Part shown: positions 1-7,098 of the stretch, piece after piece
Layout: the number at the start of each line of letters is the position of its first letter
Numbering within the stretch: position 1 is the stretch's first letter
Assembly: GCA_937858455.1 (NCBI GenBank)
Contig: CALLYN010000150.1
Coordinates: 1 to 8,186, forward strand
Length of the DNA: 8,186 bases
Source of the DNA: an uncultured Kouleothrix sp.
GTDB lineage: Bacteria > Chloroflexota > Chloroflexia > Chloroflexales > Roseiflexaceae
Direction of reading: 5' to 3'
Program-made: the position numbers and the translations under genes
The notes under the pieces: model-generated
What the model was told of the DNA's origin: nothing
Seen by the model: only the letters and a program-made list of their open reading frames with translations
Database searches by the model: none

Positions 1-494
1 CGAATGAGCTGCTGTACCTCCGGCAGCAGCTTCAGCAGCGCCAGCCGCTTCTGTACGCGCTCGCGACTCTTGCCCGACTCTACGACGATCCGATCGAGAT
101 CCCAGCCCAGCCGGGTGATCCATTTTTGGTACACCGCGCCTTCGTCGATCGCGTCGAGATCGACGCGGTTCATATTCTCCAAGAACATGATCCGCGCGGC
201 GGTCTCGTCATCCATCGCCTCGATCATGGCCGGGATCGCCGACCATCCGGCCAGCCCGGCCGCGCGCCAGCGCCGCTCGCCGGCGACGATCTCATAGCGC
301 ACCGTGCGACCGTCGACAATGCGCACATCGATCGGCCGCACGGTGATGGGCTGCTTCAGGCCGTCGCGCTGGAGGCTGGCGGCCAGCTCGCGCAGCGCGT
401 CGAGATCGAAGACCGTGCGATCGTTGTTGCCCGGCGCGATCTCGCTGTGCGGAACCATGACGGCGGTGGCGGCGATTGCGAGTTCCTTGCCCAT
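1..494 (-). CDS. parB: ParB-like partition protein / CTP-binding clamp, N-terminal part (runs off the window)
   Basis: The first 164 residues of a ParB/RepB/Spo0J-family protein are visible; the gene continues past base 1. Family members bind centromere-like parS sites, use CTP to slide along DNA, and work with a ParA ATPase in segregation; some phage and plasmid relatives act instead as nucleases or regulators. Seen here: the box GERRWRAAG (residues 72-80) and ENMNR (106-110), which match the CTP-binding motifs, then VDLDAIDEGAVYQ (111-123) leading into a helix-turn-helix-like stretch (about 131-155). The ATG at 494 is chosen because AAGGAG lies 8 bases upstream (503-508). The gene is the last in the window and follows radC, with its own copy of a duplicated promoter. 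No parA or parS is visible. The ParB-fold call is firm; whether it segregates DNA or regulates genes is unknown. Confidence 0.92.
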   Translation of the reverse strand, partial: MGKELAIAATAVMVPHSEIAPGNNDRTVFDLDALRELAASLQRDGLKQPITVRPIDVRIVDGRTVRYEIVAGERRWRAAGLAGWSAIPAMIEAMDDETAARIMFLENMNRVDLDAIDEGAVYQKWITRLGWDLDRIVVESGKSRERVQKRLALLKLLPEVQQLI

Positions 495-516
495 TGGTGT
501 CTCTCCTTGTGGGGTT

Positions 517-552
517 TACCGCTTGCTGGTGCGGTATAGCGCATCTCGCTAT
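517..552 (-). promoter_or_regulatory. Paired stem-loops in the parB leader
   Basis: Two adjacent inverted repeats lie between the predicted transcription start and the ribosome binding site. The first is ATAGCG/CGCTAT with a 5-base loop (536-541 with 547-552). The second is TACCGC/GCGGTA with an 8-base loop (517-522 with 531-536). They share base 536, so they could form one after the other or compete. Both are fully conserved before radC. They may stabilise the mRNA 5' end, serve as a protein operator, or control translation. Confidence 0.6.
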
Positions 553-558
553 GGATAT

Positions 559-587
559 ATAATAGCATAAACAGGGTACAGAGTCTA
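559..587 (-). promoter_or_regulatory. Predicted sigma-70-type promoter of parB
   Basis: Read on the minus strand: TAGACT (587-582; 4 of 6 match to TTGACA), a 17-base spacer, then TATTAT (564-559). Transcription would begin near 552, at the first base of a leader stem-loop. The same elements occur in the copy before radC. The 17-base spacing and the conservation between copies are the support; there is no experimental evidence. Confidence 0.65.
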
Positions 588-639
588 TGATAAAACCCAT
601 CTGTGGCGGTATCTTTTCGCAGCTTTGGTGGGATTTGTT

Positions 640-665
640 GCGGCCGGTGGGGTGCCACCGGCCGC
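640..665 (-). terminator. Strong hairpin between radC and parB, possible terminator
   Basis: GCGGCCGGTGG (640-650) and CCACCGGCCGC (655-665) form a perfect 11-bp stem with a 4-base loop. It begins 9 bases past the radC stop. No U-tract follows on the minus strand (next bases AACAAATC), so it is not a classical intrinsic terminator. It could be a U-less terminator or an mRNA 3'-end stabiliser. Its arm at 640-650 lies inside the 153-bp repeat, but the full hairpin is not present in copy 2. Confidence 0.5.
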
Positions 666-673
666 CCGGCCGA

Positions 674-1186
674 CTAGCGCGAGAAGCCCAGGCCGCGCTC
701 GCGCATCGAAACGAAGCTCTCCGCCCCGAGCACCAGGTGATCGAGCAGCTCGATATCGAGCAGCCGGCCAGCCGCGATCATCTCGCGGGTGATCAGCACA
801 TCCTCAGGGCTTGGCGTTGCATCACCCGAGGGGTGATTATGCGCCGCGATGATTGCCGCCGCGCCGAGCAGCAGCGCGCTCTTGAATAGCTCGCGCATCG
901 TGACTATGCTGGCGTTGAGATTGCCCTGAAACACCGGATCGATCGCCAGTACCCGGTTTTTGGTGTTCAGGATGATCGAGACCATCACCTCACGATCGCA
1001 GTTGGCGAACCGGCCGCGCAGGCAGTCGGCCCAGGCCTGCTGCGGGCTGCGAATCTGCACCGCCGCGGCCGCCTGGCTTTCGCGCACGATCTGCATGCGG
1101 ATGATCGGCGCCATGAACAGCTGCGCAGGCGCGTCCGCGCAGCTCGGCGTCACGTAGTCGTACACGGGCTTCAAGGTTCGGGCCAT
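674..1186 (-). CDS. radC: RadC-like JAMM/MPN-domain protein, short form
   Basis: This 170 aa protein carries the RadC JAB1/MPN domain, a zinc metalloprotease-like fold. The RadC role in DNA repair is doubtful in the literature, and phage, plasmid and island copies are common, sometimes next to antirestriction genes. The motif HNHPSGDATPSPED (116-129) supplies the JAMM ligands H116, H118 and D129, with S126 in the expected H-x-H-x7-S-x2-D spacing; E66 lies in the strand before it (REVMVSIILNT). The N-terminal helix-hairpin-helix region of chromosomal RadC is missing, which is typical of mobile copies. The ATG at 1186 is chosen because AAGGAG lies 7 bases upstream (1194-1199). A longer open frame reaching 1303 would translate the duplicated promoter and is unlikely. 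It has its own promoter and is followed by parB. Confidence 0.93.
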   Translation of the reverse strand: MARTLKPVYDYVTPSCADAPAQLFMAPIIRMQIVRESQAAAAVQIRSPQQAWADCLRGRFANCDREVMVSIILNTKNRVLAIDPVFQGNLNASIVTMRELFKSALLLGAAAIIAAHNHPSGDATPSPEDVLITREMIAAGRLLDIELLDHLVLGAESFVSMRERGLGFSR

Positions 1187-1207
1187 GACGTCTCTCCTTG
1201 TAGGGTT

Positions 1208-1243
1208 TACCGCTTGCTGGTGCGGTATAGCGCATCTCGCTAT
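1208..1243 (-). promoter_or_regulatory. Paired stem-loops in the radC leader
   Basis: The same two inverted repeats as in the parB leader: ATAGCG/CGCTAT (1227-1232 with 1238-1243) and TACCGC/GCGGTA (1208-1213 with 1222-1227). No base in either stem or loop differs between the copies. Confidence 0.6.
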
Positions 1244-1249
1244 GGATAT

Positions 1250-1278
1250 ATAATAGCATAAACAGGGTACAGAGTCTA
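1250..1278 (-). promoter_or_regulatory. Predicted sigma-70-type promoter of radC
   Basis: TAGACT (1278-1273), a 17-base spacer and TATTAT (1255-1250) on the minus strand, identical to the elements before parB. The predicted start is near 1243, giving a leader of about 57 bases to the radC ATG. Confidence 0.65.
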
Positions 1279-1325
1279 TGATAAAACCCATCTGTGGCGG
1301 CATCTTTTCGCAGCTTTGGTGGGAT

Positions 1326-1583
1326 TTATTGCGGCCGGCGGGGGCGCCAGATGCCCTGCGGGCGCGGATGCGGCGCGGCCGCGCGCTGCCAGTCGGCGAG
1401 CATGATGCGATCGATCAGCTCATCTTTCCGATAGTGGCGCCTGCCGGCGGCGGTGGGGATGTGGAGCGCGACTGCGATGCAGGCCAGGGTTGCGCGGCGC
1501 TGCCTGAGCAGCCAGCGACGCGCCGCAGGCTGGATGCGGAGCTGGGCGAGGAGATCGTTGCTGGCGTCGCTATCATCGTCCAT
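1326..1583 (-). CDS. Small SAP / Rho-N-terminal-like protein
   Basis: An 85 aa basic protein. Residues 31-63 resemble the SAP or Rho N-terminal helix-extension-helix fold, which binds nucleic acids: ATLACIAVALHIP is followed by the diagnostic YRKDELIDRI (51-60). The start of the protein is acidic (MDDDSD), and the tail (70-85) is rich in proline and arginine. The ATG at 1583 has no Shine-Dalgarno site. Instead TACAAT (1595-1590) ends 6 bases before it, which fits a leaderless transcript. The open frame continues upstream to 1853, but that part is arginine/proline/histidine-rich and overlaps the zinc-ribbon gene, so I leave it out. The last codons fall inside copy 2 of the 153-bp repeat. The nucleic-acid-binding role is inferred from the motif. 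Confidence 0.62.
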   Translation of the reverse strand: MDDDSDASNDLLAQLRIQPAARRWLLRQRRATLACIAVALHIPTAAGRRHYRKDELIDRIMLADWQRAAAPHPRPQGIWRPRRPQ

Positions 1584-2413: not shown

Positions 2414-3247
2414 TCAGGCGCGCACGAAGCGCACCAGCTCGGCGTCGCCGGCCACGAACCCTATGCCGCTCGCAGCATGCAGCCAGATGCGCTGCATGCC
2501 GTGTGCGTCGGGCACGACCGCATCGACGCTGAAGCGCTGGCCTTTCGGGTAGACCAGCGTGTCATTGATTGCCTTGGGAAAGCCCACATTCGGGCCGGTG
2601 CGCACGTTCGCGCCGGCGTCGGCGATCACCTCGTAGGTGCCCAGCGGGTAGCCGCGCGGCGCCTGCGCGCGGTAGGCCAGCAGTCGCTCGAACACGATCG
2701 CGCCCGGGCAGATGCTCTGGGCGGTGCCGTCCGAGCGCGGCCACTCGCGGTGGCCGTACACGGCCTGGCGGCCGGCCAGCGAAAAATCGGCGATGAGCGC
2801 ATCGCACACCTGCTCGACGCCGCGCCAGTGCTGGTCGGCGATGGGCTGCCCGACGCCGCGCAGCGTGGTGATCGCGATCGAGGCGCGGTTGGCGGTCGCA
2901 TTGCCGCAGTGGTACAGCTCGGCCCACAGGTCGCGCAGCACCGCCGGGCGGCCGCTCGGCAGCACCGCGACGTGGTACATGATCCCGTCGCCGTAGATCG
3001 GCTGCATCTGGGCCTTGTCGGCGTAGCCCCACACCTTATTGATGTGGTAGCGCGCCTCCGAGCGGATCTGGGCAAGCGCCGCATCGTCGGTGGTCGCGCC
3101 AGGCTCGACCGTGCCGGCGTAGTGGATGGTCAGGCTATCGCGCCGCGCGCACTGGCCGATGGGATCGCGCCGCTGCGGCAGCTGCGCCAGCGCATCGCGC
3201 AGGTCGATCGGGTTCAGCGCCGCCAGGCTCGGCGTGATGGGCCGCAC
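2414..3247 (-). CDS. Endolysin: N-acetylmuramoyl-L-alanine amidase (Amidase_2/PGRP-like) with C-terminal SH3b domain
   Basis: This 277 aa protein would cut the bond between N-acetylmuramic acid and L-alanine in peptidoglycan. The catalytic domain spans about 35-195. The likely zinc ligands are H42 (LTIHYAGT), H166 (VYGHREW) and C180 (ICPG); LYHCGN (111-116) is the usual second histidine block. The residue two before the cysteine, often Lys or Thr, is Ser here. Residues about 204-277 look like a bacterial SH3 cell-wall-binding domain (YEVIADAGANVRTGPNVGF). No signal peptide is visible, so export would need a holin. The start is GTG at 3247, sharing one base with the upstream stop (TAGTG) and preceded by AGGTGG. 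The two membrane proteins just upstream fit a lysis cassette. A conjugation-linked wall hydrolase is an alternative. Confidence 0.88.
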   Translation of the reverse strand: MRPITPSLAALNPIDLRDALAQLPQRRDPIGQCARRDSLTIHYAGTVEPGATTDDAALAQIRSEARYHINKVWGYADKAQMQPIYGDGIMYHVAVLPSGRPAVLRDLWAELYHCGNATANRASIAITTLRGVGQPIADQHWRGVEQVCDALIADFSLAGRQAVYGHREWPRSDGTAQSICPGAIVFERLLAYRAQAPRGYPLGTYEVIADAGANVRTGPNVGFPKAINDTLVYPKGQRFSVDAVVPDAHGMQRIWLHAASGIGFVAGDAELVRFVRA

Positions 3248-3594
3248 TACGGCGCCACCTGGGAGCGTTGGCCGAGCAGCTCGCGCAGGTGCACGATCTG
3301 GCTGGCCAGCGCGGCGACGGCGGCGCGATCCAGTGCATCGCCCAGCGGCTGGCCCTGGGCGTGGGCCAGGATCCCGCTCGCGATGATCGAGATCGCCATG
3401 GCCATGGCCAGCACGCTGATGCGCGCGCCGGCGCGGTTACAGAGCAGCCAGGTCATGCCGCGATCGACCGGATCGGTGCCGACGGGCTGGTCGCACCACC
3501 ATGCGCGCGCACGGTTGAACAGGTCGGAGGCCGCTGCGCCCGCGCCGGCCGTGGTCGCCAGGTAGGCCAGGAGTGGTAAGAGTGCGTCGTTCAC
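3247..3594 (-). CDS. Small membrane protein, holin-like
   Basis: A 115 aa protein with two hydrophobic stretches: about 4-22 (weak) and 59-78 (ISVLAMAMAISIIASGILAHA, strong). Between them is a polar segment with two tryptophans (AWWCDQP), and the tail (80-115) is amphipathic helix. Its place directly before the endolysin, with one base of overlap, fits a holin, holin-like or spanin-type partner that controls when the amidase reaches the wall. The start is GTG at 3594, overlapping the upstream stop as GTGA, so translation is probably coupled. No named family is recognised; the role is from context. Confidence 0.75.
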   Translation of the reverse strand: MNDALLPLLAYLATTAGAGAAASDLFNRARAWWCDQPVGTDPVDRGMTWLLCNRAGARISVLAMAMAISIIASGILAHAQGQPLGDALDRAAVAALASQIVHLRELLGQRSQVAP

Positions 3595-4013: not shown

Positions 4014-4066
4014 AAAAAAACGGAACGGCGGTCAAATCCGAAAACTTTTCGGATTTAACCGCCGTT
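4014..4066 (-). terminator. Very strong intrinsic terminator of the 122 aa gene
   Basis: Arms at 4024-4044 and 4046-4066 pair over 21 positions, closing on a single central base, with an AAAAGTTTT tip. In the minus-strand RNA the only non-Watson-Crick position (4033/4057) is a G-U pair, while in plus-strand RNA it would be a C-A mismatch. A run of seven U (4020-4014) follows only on the minus side. It lies 28 bases past the stop at 4095 and separates this gene from the lysis-type operon. Confidence 0.93.
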
Positions 4067-4094
4067 CTTCGGTCGGTCGGTATGCTGTGTGTGG

Positions 4095-4463
4095 CTACGC
4101 CCTGGGCGCGTCCTTGAAATGCTGCACGCGCAGGGCGAATGCCTCGAAGGTTTCGCCGGGCGCCACTTGGAGCGGCAGCGCGGTGCGCCGGGTGATCTGC
4201 GCGCCGACGATCTTGCCGTCGCGCATACGGAACTCGACCACATCGCCGTCGTCGGCCGCCGCGCACACGCGCGCTAAGAAGGCCTCGGGCAGCTCGCGCT
4301 CGGCCGGCTGGAACGTCAGCTCCGTCGAGCTATGCATCAGCTGGCCACCAGCCTTCTCGAAGCGCGCCACGCCATGGCTGTAGGTCACGTCGTCGCGCGT
4401 GAAGCGCCGCCGGATCGTCTCGAGCAGGCTGCCCGTGGTTGAGCGTGGTGTGGCGGTGAGCAT
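4095..4463 (-). CDS. Unknown 122 aa protein, separately regulated
   Basis: I do not recognise this protein. It is soluble, has a basic N-terminal part (SLLETIRRRFTRDD, about 12-25), an alternating strand/helix pattern and no membrane segment or cysteine pattern. The stretch DDGDVVEFRMRDGKIVGAQI (about 75-94) looks like a small beta-rich domain. The ATG at 4463 follows AAGGAG by 6 bases; the open frame reaching 4583 includes the leader hairpin and is not used. It is a monocistronic unit with its own -10 box, a leader hairpin and a strong terminator. Lying between the recombinase and the lysis genes, it could be an excision or control factor, but nothing in the sequence shows this. Confidence 0.72.
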   Translation of the reverse strand: MLTATPRSTTGSLLETIRRRFTRDDVTYSHGVARFEKAGGQLMHSSTELTFQPAERELPEAFLARVCAAADDGDVVEFRMRDGKIVGAQITRRTALPLQVAPGETFEAFALRVQHFKDAPRA

Positions 4464-4493
4464 CCTGGTCTCCTTTGGTGGCCCGATACACGA

Positions 4494-4529
4494 GCGCGGC
4501 GAGCCGGGTGCTAACCTGGCTCGCCGCGC
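4494..4529 (-). promoter_or_regulatory. 16-bp leader hairpin of the 122 aa gene
   Basis: Arms 4494-4509 and 4514-4529 pair at 15 positions plus one mismatched or wobble position (4506/4517), with a 4-base loop. The hairpin sits between the predicted -10 box (4559-4554) and the AAGGAG site (4475-4470). It may attenuate transcription, protect the mRNA or end read-through from the recombinase gene. No U-tract follows on either strand. Confidence 0.7.
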
Positions 4530-4553
4530 GTGCTTCGCTTTGGCTGTGCAGGC

Positions 4554-4559
4554 AGTATA
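4554..4559 (-). promoter_or_regulatory. -10 box TATACT before the 122 aa gene
   Basis: TATACT on the minus strand, about 90 bases before the ATG at 4463. No good -35 hexamer is found at 16-18 bases. The same hexamer occurs before the recombinase gene. Confidence 0.4.
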
Positions 4560-4596
4560 TCGCATGAGCGGAGCGGGCGCCATAGTCCTGCGGCCT

Positions 4597-4660: not shown

Positions 4661-5560
4661 CAGGTAGTCGCTCGACGACTCGCTCGGCCGGGCGTGCGCG
4701 TACTTGGTGGTGGTGGCCAGCGAGGCGTGGCCGAGCGTGTCTTTCACCAGGTGCGCGGGCGCGCCGCGATCGAGGGCATGCGAGGCGTGGGCGTGGCGCA
4801 TCCAGTGGGGGCTGACGTCGGCGGGCAGGCCTGCGCGCACGGCCGCAGCCTTGACGATCTGCCAGGCCCACGACCGCGCGATCGGCTTGCCCTTTTTCGA
4901 GGCAAAGATCGGCGCGTCCGGCCCATCGGCGGGGCGGCGGCGCGCGCGCAGCTCATGCCAGGTCGACTCGCTGAGCTTGACCACGCGCGTCTCGCCACCC
5001 TTGCCCAGGAGCGTGATCTGGCCCGCCTTCCCATTGGGCGCCGTATCGCGCCAGGTGGCGGCCAGCACCTCGGAGATGCGGCCGCCCGAGCTGTAGAGCA
5101 CCCGGATCAGCAGGTGCTTGAAGGGGTCGTCCTCCATCGCGAGCATGCGCTGCATCTGCTCCTCGGAGAGGATCCGTTCCGCCAGGGTGTTCTTGGGCTG
5201 GCTGAGCTCGAGCGCCGCGCCGACGTTGTACGGCAGGTAGCCCGACTTCTGCCCAAAGGTGAGCAGCGATTTCACCGCCGCGAGGATGTTTTTCTGTGTG
5301 CCCTCGCTGAGCGCGCCGAGCGACTCGGCGAAGCGCAGCAGCTCGTCGAGCGAGAGCTGGCGCAGCCCCAGCCCCCGCGTGGCGAGATGCGCGAGCAGGC
5401 GATCGCCATGGCGCTGGTAGGTCGAGCGCGTGTGGGCACTTTTGCGCTTCGACCGAACCCACAGATCGACGAGCGCGGCGTCATCCGCGCTCGTCGCGAG
5501 CTGGGGCCGGGCGGTGGCGAGGCCGGTCGTTGCGGGCGTTGCAAGGCTCAAATCGTCCAT
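4652..5560 (-). CDS. Tyrosine recombinase / integrase (XerC/D-like)
   Basis: A complete 302 aa recombinase that would integrate, excise or resolve DNA by strand exchange through a 3'-phosphotyrosine. A short N-terminal leader (1-28) precedes a SAM-like core-binding domain (about 29-118; STYQRHGDRLLAHL), then the catalytic domain (about 130-295). All six active-site residues are present: R161 (SGGRISEV), K187 (LLGKGGETR), H252 and R255 (HWMRH), H278 (LGHAS) and Y287 (TKYAHA). The ATG at 5560 has only a weak AGGCGG close upstream. It lies alone between an acidic small protein and the 122 aa gene. The compact form with no arm-binding domain resembles Xer-type and plasmid or small-phage integrases, so dimer resolution of a plasmid-like element is possible as well as integration. 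Confidence 0.94.
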   Translation of the reverse strand: MDDLSLATPATTGLATARPQLATSADDAALVDLWVRSKRKSAHTRSTYQRHGDRLLAHLATRGLGLRQLSLDELLRFAESLGALSEGTQKNILAAVKSLLTFGQKSGYLPYNVGAALELSQPKNTLAERILSEEQMQRMLAMEDDPFKHLLIRVLYSSGGRISEVLAATWRDTAPNGKAGQITLLGKGGETRVVKLSESTWHELRARRRPADGPDAPIFASKKGKPIARSWAWQIVKAAAVRAGLPADVSPHWMRHAHASHALDRGAPAHLVKDTLGHASLATTTKYAHARPSESSSDYLAV

Positions 5561-5589
5561 GTGCCGCCTGTTTTTTCGGCGCGAAAACC

Positions 5590-5613
5590 AGAACAGAAGT
5601 ATAGTTATGTTCT
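5590..5613 (-). promoter_or_regulatory. Inverted repeat over the recombinase promoter
   Basis: AGAACA (5590-5595) and TGTTCT (5608-5613) are perfect inverted arms 12 bases apart, enclosing a TATACT -10 box on the minus strand (5603-5598). A repressor bound here would block the recombinase. The arms recall but do not match known LexA boxes. No -35 hexamer is clear. Confidence 0.5.
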
Positions 5614-5638
5614 AGTCCTATCGCCCTATGGTTTCGAG

Positions 5639-5968
5639 TCATGGGGTTTTCTGCAGCAACTCCGCTAGCGCCTGCGCGGCGTCGACCGGCGTACGACCGC
5701 ATGCCTTGATTGCCCACCTAGTTGCTTCATCCTCTTGAACTCGATATCCGCAACACCATGTCGTGACTCCGATGGGCCCGGCAACGTCCACCTCAAGTGT
5801 AAGCCAGAGCGTACCTTCGTCCTGATCTTCGTCGTATTCACCGCCCTCGTCCTGATCTTCGTCGTATTCATCGCCTTCGTCCGCGCGCCGCTTGTCCTCC
5901 CAGATCTGCTGCGCGCGCTCCGTTTTGCGAGCGAGTATAACTAGCATTGCCGCGAGATCAGAGTTCAT
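5639..5968 (-). CDS. Small acidic protein with tandem D/E-rich repeat
   Basis: A 109 aa protein of unknown family. A helical N-terminus (1-28) leads to two exact-sense copies of a ten-residue acidic unit (33-42 and 43-52, each ending EYDEDQDEG), then a probable beta-rich domain (53-92; LWLTLEVDVAG, WCCGYRV) and a final helix (94-106, VDAAQALAELLQ). The ATG at 5968 is preferred because AAGGA lies 7-8 bases upstream; an ATG at 5992, directly after the upstream stop (TGAATG), would add eight residues but has a poor site. It ends the upstream gene cluster. The acidic tract could mimic DNA or bind metal; neither is shown. Confidence 0.78.
   Translation of the reverse strand: MNSDLAAMLVILARKTERAQQIWEDKRRADEGDEYDEDQDEGGEYDEDQDEGTLWLTLEVDVAGPIGVTTWCCGYRVQEDEATRWAIKACGRTPVDAAQALAELLQKTP
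5821..5880. repeat. 30-bp tandem repeat, two copies, within the acidic protein gene
   Basis: Units 5821-5850 and 5851-5880 differ at only two positions (5841/5871 and 5846/5876). The repeat keeps the reading frame and adds ten acidic residues. The last bases of the unit also occur just before it (about 5814-5820). Slippage could change the copy number in frame. Confidence 0.93.
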
Positions 5969-5992
5969 GTCGCTATCCTTTCCTGGAAACAT

Positions 5993-6343
5993 TCAACCCA
6001 TCGCGGCGGTCGGCAACTGCTTTCGCCAGTCGCTGCGCCAACCCAGATCCGCCGCGATGTCGCCACTCTTGTCTCCCACCAGCGCGTTCAGCGTCTTCCA
6101 CGCCGCGTCGCGGATGTACCTTGAATCTCCTACCGTATTGACATGCTCTGCGGTCTTCCATCGCTTTATAAAAACAGAGTGGCTGATTTGCTCGGTGTCG
6201 AAAACCACCGTAATCAGCGCGTCGCCATATTCAGCGAATCCAAAAATCGTATAGAACGCCACCATCGGCGCAGGCGCCACTAGTCGCCCGAATAACACCC
6301 GATAACTTACGCCGTCGCCGGGCTCGAACACAAAAAGATGCAT
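5993..6343 (-). CDS. Unknown 116 aa protein
   Basis: I do not recognise this protein. It is a mixed alpha/beta soluble protein with an aromatic-rich N-terminal half (MHLFVFEPGDGVSYRVLFGR; then VAFYTIFGFAEYGDALITVVFD, about 28-49) that looks like several beta strands. The C-terminal half is helical and basic (WKTAEHVN, DAAWKTLNALVG). There is no signal peptide, cysteine pattern or clear active site. The ATG at 6343 has GGAGG 4 bases upstream, in the 8-base gap after the 248 aa gene, so the two are probably co-transcribed. Codon use is less GC-extreme than in its neighbours (TTT, AAA and ATA codons), a hint of separate origin. Confidence 0.78.
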   Translation of the reverse strand: MHLFVFEPGDGVSYRVLFGRLVAPAPMVAFYTIFGFAEYGDALITVVFDTEQISHSVFIKRWKTAEHVNTVGDSRYIRDAAWKTLNALVGDKSGDIAADLGWRSDWRKQLPTAAMG

Positions 6344-6351
6344 GCACCCTC

Positions 6352-7098
6352 CTACGCCGCCGATACGCGGCGAACTTCAAGGTTCGGCGTGATGGGCTCT
6401 TCTTGCAGCGTCATGCGGTACGTCTCCGAGCGGCCATGCTGATGCTGCACGATAACCACCATCTGCTCGTTGGGATCGTACTCTGCAACCCACTGCTGAA
6501 TGGTATCACTCGGCCAGGTATTGCCGTTGCGGCGCACCGTGGCATCGGTGATGTAGTAGGCCTGCGAAAAGCCCCCGCTGGCGTCGATGCAGAGCACGAT
6601 CGCGCCGCGCCCGTGCTCGCGCACCCCGGAGCGCGCCAGCTGGCTCAGCTCGCGGCCCATGGCCAGCAGGTAGAGCTGGGCCTTCTCGCTGATGCTGGTG
6701 TTCGGATCGTGGAGAAGCGCGCTGATCTGGTCTTTCTCCAAGACCGCCTCGTCGTACAGCCCGAGGCGCGCGAGCGCGCCGGTGTCGCGGTCGGCGGCGC
6801 AGGCGGCGCACCAGGCCGGCTCGCTGAAGGCGAACGTCGCATCCGGCAGCTTTGCACCGCAGAACATGCAGTGACTGGCAAGCCACACACGCGCGACCAG
6901 GATCGCCATGATACGATCGTTCTCGTCGGTGCTGATCAGCGAGCGTATCAAGCCTGCCGCGAACGGCATCGCCGGCGGCGCGGCCGCCACGGCGTAGCAA
7001 TCATTCGACTCGCGCACGATGCGCGCGCCCGCGCGCAGGCGAATCAGCGTATCGTCGATCGTCTCGTCGTCGGGCAGTGCAAGGGTGATGGTGGGCAT
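6352..7098 (-). CDS. Unknown 248 aa protein with a four-cysteine zinc-binding motif
   Basis: Function not recognised. Residues 77-100 hold CMFC and CAAC separated by 16 residues (C77, C80, C97, C100), a clear zinc-finger or zinc-ribbon pattern. Before it, residues 1-70 form a small domain (MPTITLALPDDETIDD) and a helix. After it comes a helical region (110-160), then probable beta strands (RGAIVLCIDASGGFSQAYYI, 164-183; MVVIVQHQHGRSETYRMTL, 213-231). There is no membrane segment. The ATG at 7098 follows AGGAGG by 4 bases, and the stop of the 88 aa gene is 13 bases upstream, so it belongs to the small-gene cluster. It could bind DNA, RNA or protein; no enzymatic motif is visible. Confidence 0.83.
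   Translation of the reverse strand: MPTITLALPDDETIDDTLIRLRAGARIVRESNDCYAVAAAPPAMPFAAGLIRSLISTDENDRIMAILVARVWLASHCMFCGAKLPDATFAFSEPAWCAACAADRDTGALARLGLYDEAVLEKDQISALLHDPNTSISEKAQLYLLAMGRELSQLARSGVREHGRGAIVLCIDASGGFSQAYYITDATVRRNGNTWPSDTIQQWVAEYDPNEQMVVIVQHQHGRSETYRMTLQEEPITPNLEVRRVSAA

Follow-up and report, generated by a model that had tools for sequence, protein, structure and literature searches.

A predicted four-copy promoter cassette, with a predicted two-hairpin leader in three copies, ahead of unrelated genes in a likely prophage of an uncultured Kouleothrix sp.

Four copies of a putative regulatory cassette, all on the same strand, each just upstream of a start codon, and distributed over two overlapping contigs, were found in what is likely to be a prophage of an uncultured Kouleothrix sp. 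These copies are probably best explained as a control module in which a regulated sigma70-type promoter, accompanied in three cases by a predicted two-hairpin leader and a ribosome-binding site, would place radC, parB, a 64-aa open reading frame (ORF) and a DUF488-like gene under one signal. Against this reading stands copy 4, which is devoid of the hairpins and precedes a gene with an apparently disrupted frame. An earlier note on the window (the whole stretch of DNA analyzed here, 8,186 bp) had proposed a reusable control module from the two copies ahead of parB and radC; this proposal gains support and is widened by two extra copies that precede other genes in the same orientation, so that the cassette is not a private feature of the radC/parB pair.

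The window spans all of contig C150, and the assembly to which it belongs (5.14 Mb) is fragmented into 1,123 contigs. In the self-comparison of the window, copy 1 (499-652, minus strand), located ahead of parB, and copy 2 (1190-1343, minus strand), located ahead of radC, form a direct repeat of 154 bp with 97% identity, in length well ahead of any other of the 20 listed families of direct repeats (the runner-up is 30 nt long). The two near-identical copies are therefore as originally described except for their exact start, which is 499 rather than 500, and alignment of the copies returns precisely the four differences that had been claimed, namely 511 G/A, 610 T/C, 637 G/A and 648 T/C (positions 1202, 1301, 1328 and 1339 in the second copy). 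Two of these differences fall in the upstream block, one in the leader and one in the upstream part, with no contrast between block and leader, which suggests that copies 1 and 2 are recent duplicates or have been homogenized. The flanking genes are indeed unrelated: the 5′ part of parB (3-494, minus strand) matches the Pfam families ParB_N and HTH_ParB, whereas radC (674-1186, minus strand) encodes a short form of the JAB/RadC domain (Pfam RadC). Homology ends at the coding starts, again as noted before, with the repeat stopping 4 bases short of the parB start codon (494-492) and 3 bases short of that of radC (1186-1184). Upstream of copy 2, an ORF of about 85 aa (1326-1583, minus strand) has its stop codon inside the cassette; a Pfam search with the ORF at 1326-1580 gave no match.

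A search of the cassette's own assembly for further copies, the check suggested in the earlier note, produced four matches, that is, copies 1 and 2 and two more on contig C134, each ahead of another gene and in the same orientation. The end of C134 (6855-6909) coincides with positions 1-55 of the window, and because this 55-bp sequence is present at these two places only in the assembly, the two contigs are very probably neighbors, with parB spanning their junction; for the opposite, outer end of each contig, no match was found elsewhere in the assembly. Copy 3 (C134, 6449-6273) is complete, shows 86% identity and lies ahead of the 64-aa ORF, which starts at 6276 and is followed by a 255-aa ORF (5233-6000). 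Copy 4 (C134, 3397-3313; 89% identity over 85 bp) consists of the upstream block and the promoter, without leader hairpins, and precedes the DUF488-like gene. The orientation is identical in all four copies, and copies 1-3 stop within 3-4 bp of a start codon. Since C134 carries two additional copies that have diverged, an assembly artefact, which had been named as a possible refutation, is unlikely. The gene that follows copy 4 looks either broken or misassembled: translation from the ATG behind the ribosome site (3282-3280) would meet a stop after 24 codons, and the weak match to DUF488 (E 4.1e-6) is in a frame other than that of this ATG. Accordingly, within 2934-3282 on the minus strand of C134, the start and the matching body of this gene are in different frames.

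The element is likely to be a prophage or something similar, considering the tyrosine integrase and the amidase-type endolysin in the neighborhood and the phage GNAT-like/DAM-like protein encoded on C134. Scans of 17 different proteins from both contigs, the main ORFs included, against Pfam or PHROGs detected no head or tail families among the scanned proteins of these 15 kb, save a weak partial head-closure match of the endolysin protein (E 0.003). Homologues of the 255-aa ORF (252 residues in the query) were detected in 40 of the 82 genomes of the order. Among the 66 proteins listed as homologues in a separate search, nearly all are unnamed or hypothetical and one is called PadR, and no function was assigned from these names; homologues named Chloroflexus, at 47% and 48% identity, hint at a host close to this genus. 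Two further observations concern the rest of the window. A strong intrinsic terminator on the minus strand (4023-4067), with a stem of 20 pairs followed by a T run, is located downstream of the integrase and of the ORF at 4095-4583, and a small ORF contains an in-frame 30-bp tandem duplication (5814-5873) that yields the acidic repeat YDEDQDEG.

Read 5′ to 3′ on the minus strand, the cassette comprises a 53-bp upstream block, the predicted promoter TAGACT-17-TATTAT, the two-hairpin leader, the ribosome-binding site AAGGAG and the start codon. The promoter, recognized by consensus match only, carries a TG before the second hexamer (extended -10) in all four copies and maps in the sigma70 scan to 559-587 in copy 1 and, with the same hexamers and spacing, to 1250-1278 in copy 2. 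The rule that places the start relative to the -10 position predicts transcription from about 552 and about 1243, respectively. The scan of the 8,186-bp window listed two sites, both inside the cassettes; this number is unremarkable (shuffled sequences give a mean of 1.2, sd 1.0), and hence it is the placement of the sites that constitutes the evidence. On C134, which has an AT-rich stretch at 1860-2930 (42% GC), 14 sites were listed, among them both cassette promoters of that contig. The 13-mer core of the promoter, TATGCTATTATAT, occurs five times in the 5.14 Mb of the assembly, always on C134 or the window and in the same orientation, and the reversed pattern used as a control does not occur. 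Four of these occurrences lie in the cassettes. At the fifth (C134, 4206-4218), the upstream region is different, and the core belongs to another predicted promoter (4206-4260, minus strand) that precedes a further small ORF; the upstream region of this promoter contains a perfect inverted repeat of 17 bp, TGCTGAAACTTCAGCAG ... CTGCTGAAGTTTCAGCA, which is likely to be an operator.

All four copies share the same -35 and -10 hexamers, and the spacer varies between copies 1/2, 3 and 4. The upstream block, which directly precedes the -35 hexamer (588-640 in copy 1 and 1279-1331 in copy 2, minus strand), is conserved in all four copies, with 1-5 differences per 53 positions across the six pairwise comparisons, and could be the binding site of a regulator. 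No clear operator palindrome was identified in the block, the best inverted arms pairing at 8-9 of 11 positions, a level reached by 3.75% of 400 shuffles. Because copy 4 has both the block and the promoter but no hairpins, these two parts form the common core of the cassette, to which the hairpin leader is an addition.

The leader region, which spans about 58 nt and is predicted to form two hairpins, is present in copies 1-3. In copy 1, hairpin 1 (536-552, minus strand) begins at the predicted +1 and is followed by hairpin 2 (518-535), with the loop ACCAGCAA, and by AAGGAG (503-508); the corresponding segments of copy 2 (1227-1243, 1209-1226 and 1194-1199) have the same sequence in both hairpins, so that the shared promoter, two stem-loops and ribosome-binding site that had been attributed to each of these copies are all present. 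A separate GC-rich stem-loop with an 11-bp stem (640-665, minus strand; -25.9 kcal/mol) occupies the interval between the radC stop and copy 1. The same stem is found before copy 3, hence before two of the four copies only, is not followed by a T run and is absent from the list of terminators. When the folding of the leader region was compared with that of shuffled sequences, copy 1 together with the upstream GC stem gave z -4.1, and copy 2 gave z -1.2, which is not a clear signal. A search of the window against Rfam gave two matches at E up to 1, both under their gathering scores (20.4 of 40 and 15.3 of 35).

The changes between copies 1 and 3 are unevenly distributed. They affect 4 of the 76 positions that extend from the block up to, but not including, the -10 hexamer, compared to 17 of 51 leader positions (Fisher p = 4.7e-5, for segments that were picked with the alignment in view). 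In the leader stems, 6 of 22 positions are changed and yet all 11 pairs are kept, three of them via double substitution, an outcome that has a probability of about 0.001 for an equal number of random changes; no change affects the eight-base loop of hairpin 2. The conservation of the promoter and the block, combined with a leader that changes while its pairing is kept, argues for selection rather than recent duplication alone, in tests that are small, with four copies only, and in which gene conversion confined to the block could mimic the contrast. Thus, of the causes originally offered for the near-identity of the module (recent duplication, gene conversion or selection), duplication or homogenization fits copies 1 and 2, whereas the pattern between copies 1 and 3 favors selection and speaks against duplication alone.

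If the cassette functions in this manner, RNA polymerase with the main sigma factor of the host would start transcription of each client gene separately, and a regulator, of phage or host origin, acting on the upstream block would set a common timing. The 5′ hairpins would shield the end of the message and, in addition, would keep the ribosome site apart from coding sequences that are very different from each other. The copies would have spread by duplication or recombination within the element and would then have been kept by selection on the block, the promoter and the pairing of the leader; homology between the copies would let the intervening genes be gained or lost as units.

The last of these effects might alternatively be the principal one. 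Under such a scenario, which is compatible with the control module, the cassette would primarily supply short homology for swaps of single genes between phages, and the promoter function would be secondary. Both radC and parB are flanked by two copies each, and the same logic applies to the PeSLs, which are credited with a role in shuffling in the account given in PMC4503421. However, no related element with a gene exchanged between copies was encountered in the collections searched, recombination as the main role leaves the pairing of the leader and the conservation of the -35 and -10 hexamers unexplained, and we consider it rather unlikely.

Also improbable is the possibility that the copies are mere recent duplications or gene-conversion tracts, such that radC and parB share a leader by descent, with no meaningful common control. 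The 4 differences in 154 positions between copies 1 and 2, spread over the block, the leader and the upstream part, are compatible with this possibility, as are the broken appearance of the gene behind copy 4 and the confinement of the cassette to this element in the searched collections. Within the order, the cassette was found in 1 of 82 genomes, its own, and in none of the 81 others; in a sample of 400 genomes of the phylum, it was again found only in its own genome (1 of 400; the scoring took at most two candidates per listed genome, hence two of the four resident copies appeared). It was not found in phage and plasmid records, and exact-pattern scans of IMG/VR with two specific patterns gave no match. 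Thus, no related elements carrying the cassette were found in the genomes of the order, the phylum sample or the IMG/VR pattern scans. The 39 IMG/VR matches of a 16-mer from hairpin 2, the best of which extends to 25 bases at 92%, were taken as chance, and so were two 19-mer matches in the GTDB genome collection (Rhizobiales and Membranihabitans records), which amount to a 20-base match only. Mere duplication is difficult to reconcile with the uneven divergence of copies 3 and 4, in which the block and promoter are kept and the spacer and leader are changed, with the persistence of leader pairing through double changes, and with the termination of copies 1-3 within 3-4 bp of a start codon.

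A more specific hypothesis, to which we assign a low probability, is that the cassette serves the element's own ParB as an operator or centromere, and that this ParB would act as a KorB-like CTP clamp that silences or times several genes, its own included. KorB of plasmid RK2 is a ParB-family protein that represses target promoters from specific sites, with the operator near or far (PMC11790492). The element likewise encodes a ParB-family protein as one of the cassette's clients; this ParB has the N-terminal and HTH domains, its best matches in the PDB are Noc, Spo0J and ParB chains, and the match to KorB is weak (E 1.4e-5). The conservation of a long upstream block in four copies is also consistent with an operator. 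However, no canonical parS was detected within 3 mismatches in either the window or C134, and the block has no strong or clear palindrome, in a comparison with the KorB regulon in which canonical parS was the binding site searched for. Furthermore, the parB-bearing regions of three relatives are free of the cassette: in three other genomes of the order (G034:C48, G035:C111 and G040:C631), radC and a parB-like gene are found next to or near each other in one orientation and accordingly represent a recurrent pair, but the cassette of the window was not found in these regions. The presence of ParB is the one pointer to a regulator that might act in the manner of KorB. The extended version of this hypothesis, whereby ParB expressed from one copy acts as the clamp, recognizing the upstream block and setting the timing of every copy, including its own and that of radC, within a portable-cassette regulon of a Chloroflexota phage, appears quite doubtful. 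Finally, a role of the plus strand of the block in specifying a short peptide (MIKPICGG.FSQLWWDLL) or an RNA was rejected as highly improbable: in each of the four copies a frame that begins with ATG stays open across the block, but the sequence after the block is different in every copy, the changes between copies hit all three codon positions, Rfam has no match near threshold, and the -35 region of a plus-strand promoter would fall in the changing leader.

With regard to the control module, the nearest known kinds in logic appear to be the PeSLs and the promoter motif of HGTV-1. The PeSLs (promoter early stem-loops) of T4-like phages are intergenic promoter modules that are said to mediate gene shuffling (PMC4503421) and are termed composite promoter-terminator motifs in a title cited in the same source. 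Like a PeSL, the cassette is a repeated promoter module, located before four unrelated genes of one likely prophage, and each copy contains a sigma70-type site, by consensus match only. Unlike the PeSLs as characterized in that title, it includes no terminator, given that the GC stem precedes only copies 1 and 3 and is not followed by a T run, and its hairpins lie mostly in the 5′ leader. Because it lacks the terminator that belongs to this description, we regard the cassette as a variant of the PeSLs and not a member. In the haloarchaeal virus HGTV-1, a promoter module is copied ahead of unrelated genes (PMC3950731); this motif is of the archaeal promoter type, unlike the cassette, and the likeness drawn here is one of logic.

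Other repeats described in phages are more distant. The SAS of cluster K mycobacteriophages are repeats close upstream of the starts of different non-structural genes, and about half of them carry a longer inverted-repeat extension, the ESAS (PMC3203893). The SAS, however, are 13 bp long and tied to translation starts, whereas the cassette is more than 10 times longer and carries a promoter-like site; by reading, the 13-bp SAS sequence GGGATAGGAGCCC is absent at the start codons of the cassette, and copies 1-3 have ACAAGGAGAGAC... before the starts. The 17-bp dyad repeats of cluster O mycobacteriophages are present in more than 30 copies per genome, many of them intergenic, and, as portrayed in PMC4351075, differ from the cassette in being short palindromes that are mostly away from promoters and have no leader. 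RadC genes have been noted earlier in hot-spring phage genomes (PMC8597652). Among the matches listed in the open-licence literature, judged by title and the start of the abstract, none described a Chloroflexus-type phage with a cassette of this kind. What the cassette adds to the known modules is the structured leader, with pairing that seems to be kept while the sequence changes. As an example of an already known strategy, it is both good and testable, and its leader feature is new; it also provides a lead on the frequency of this strategy, a handle on the genes that such a phage would switch on together and a test object for a portable promoter and leader.

Reused leaders, of which the cassette of the window is one instance, occur in certain other phages, where radC is one client among many. 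A scan for repeated promoter-like segments in 162 loci (1.74 Mb) yielded 14 pairs in 7 loci. In a second scan, based on gene starts, reused upstream regions, unrelated in sequence to the cassette, were detected in 12 of 80 radC-bearing IMG/VR loci (drawn from 242 that encode a relative), so that such modules can be searched for systematically, and in 3 of 23 parB or integrase loci (6 of 476 genes). These counts are low estimates from starts picked by a crude rule, with 6 of the 12 loci inspected by eye; loci L021, L071 and L082 were missed, although the promoter-segment scan had found them. A preference of radC for reused regions was not significant (5 of 79 radC genes vs 59 of 1,782 other genes, p = 0.19), and a special link of radC to such modules is hence unsupported.

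In five IMG/VR phage loci, L042, L013, L024, L027 and L082, repeated upstream modules reach the start codon region and one copy lies directly before radC; their sequence match to the cassette of the window is limited to short chance stretches. The strongest analogues of the cassette are L042 (IMGVR_UViG_3300042691_020140), with shared upstream regions at 21 gene starts and 39 ORFs kept, and L013 (IMGVR_UViG_3300045999_006495), with 14 gene starts and 32 ORFs, radC being one client in each. By eye, their module consists of a stem-loop, a TCTCATCT..TTCTAATGTT-like run, a -10 box, often a small leader palindrome, and a ribosome site; a strict pattern for the conserved upstream run is found at 11 places in L013 and 2 in L042. 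The radC/parB-bearing locus L172, from one of the three relatives with the recurrent pair (G034), has a strong promoter-like TTGACA-17-TACAAT repeated at 6371-6459 and 14423-14509. In L024, five copies of TTGACA-17-GANAAT with a GCAAAGGAG leader (at about 4225, 5007, 6041, 7015 and 15203) precede different genes, one of which is radC.
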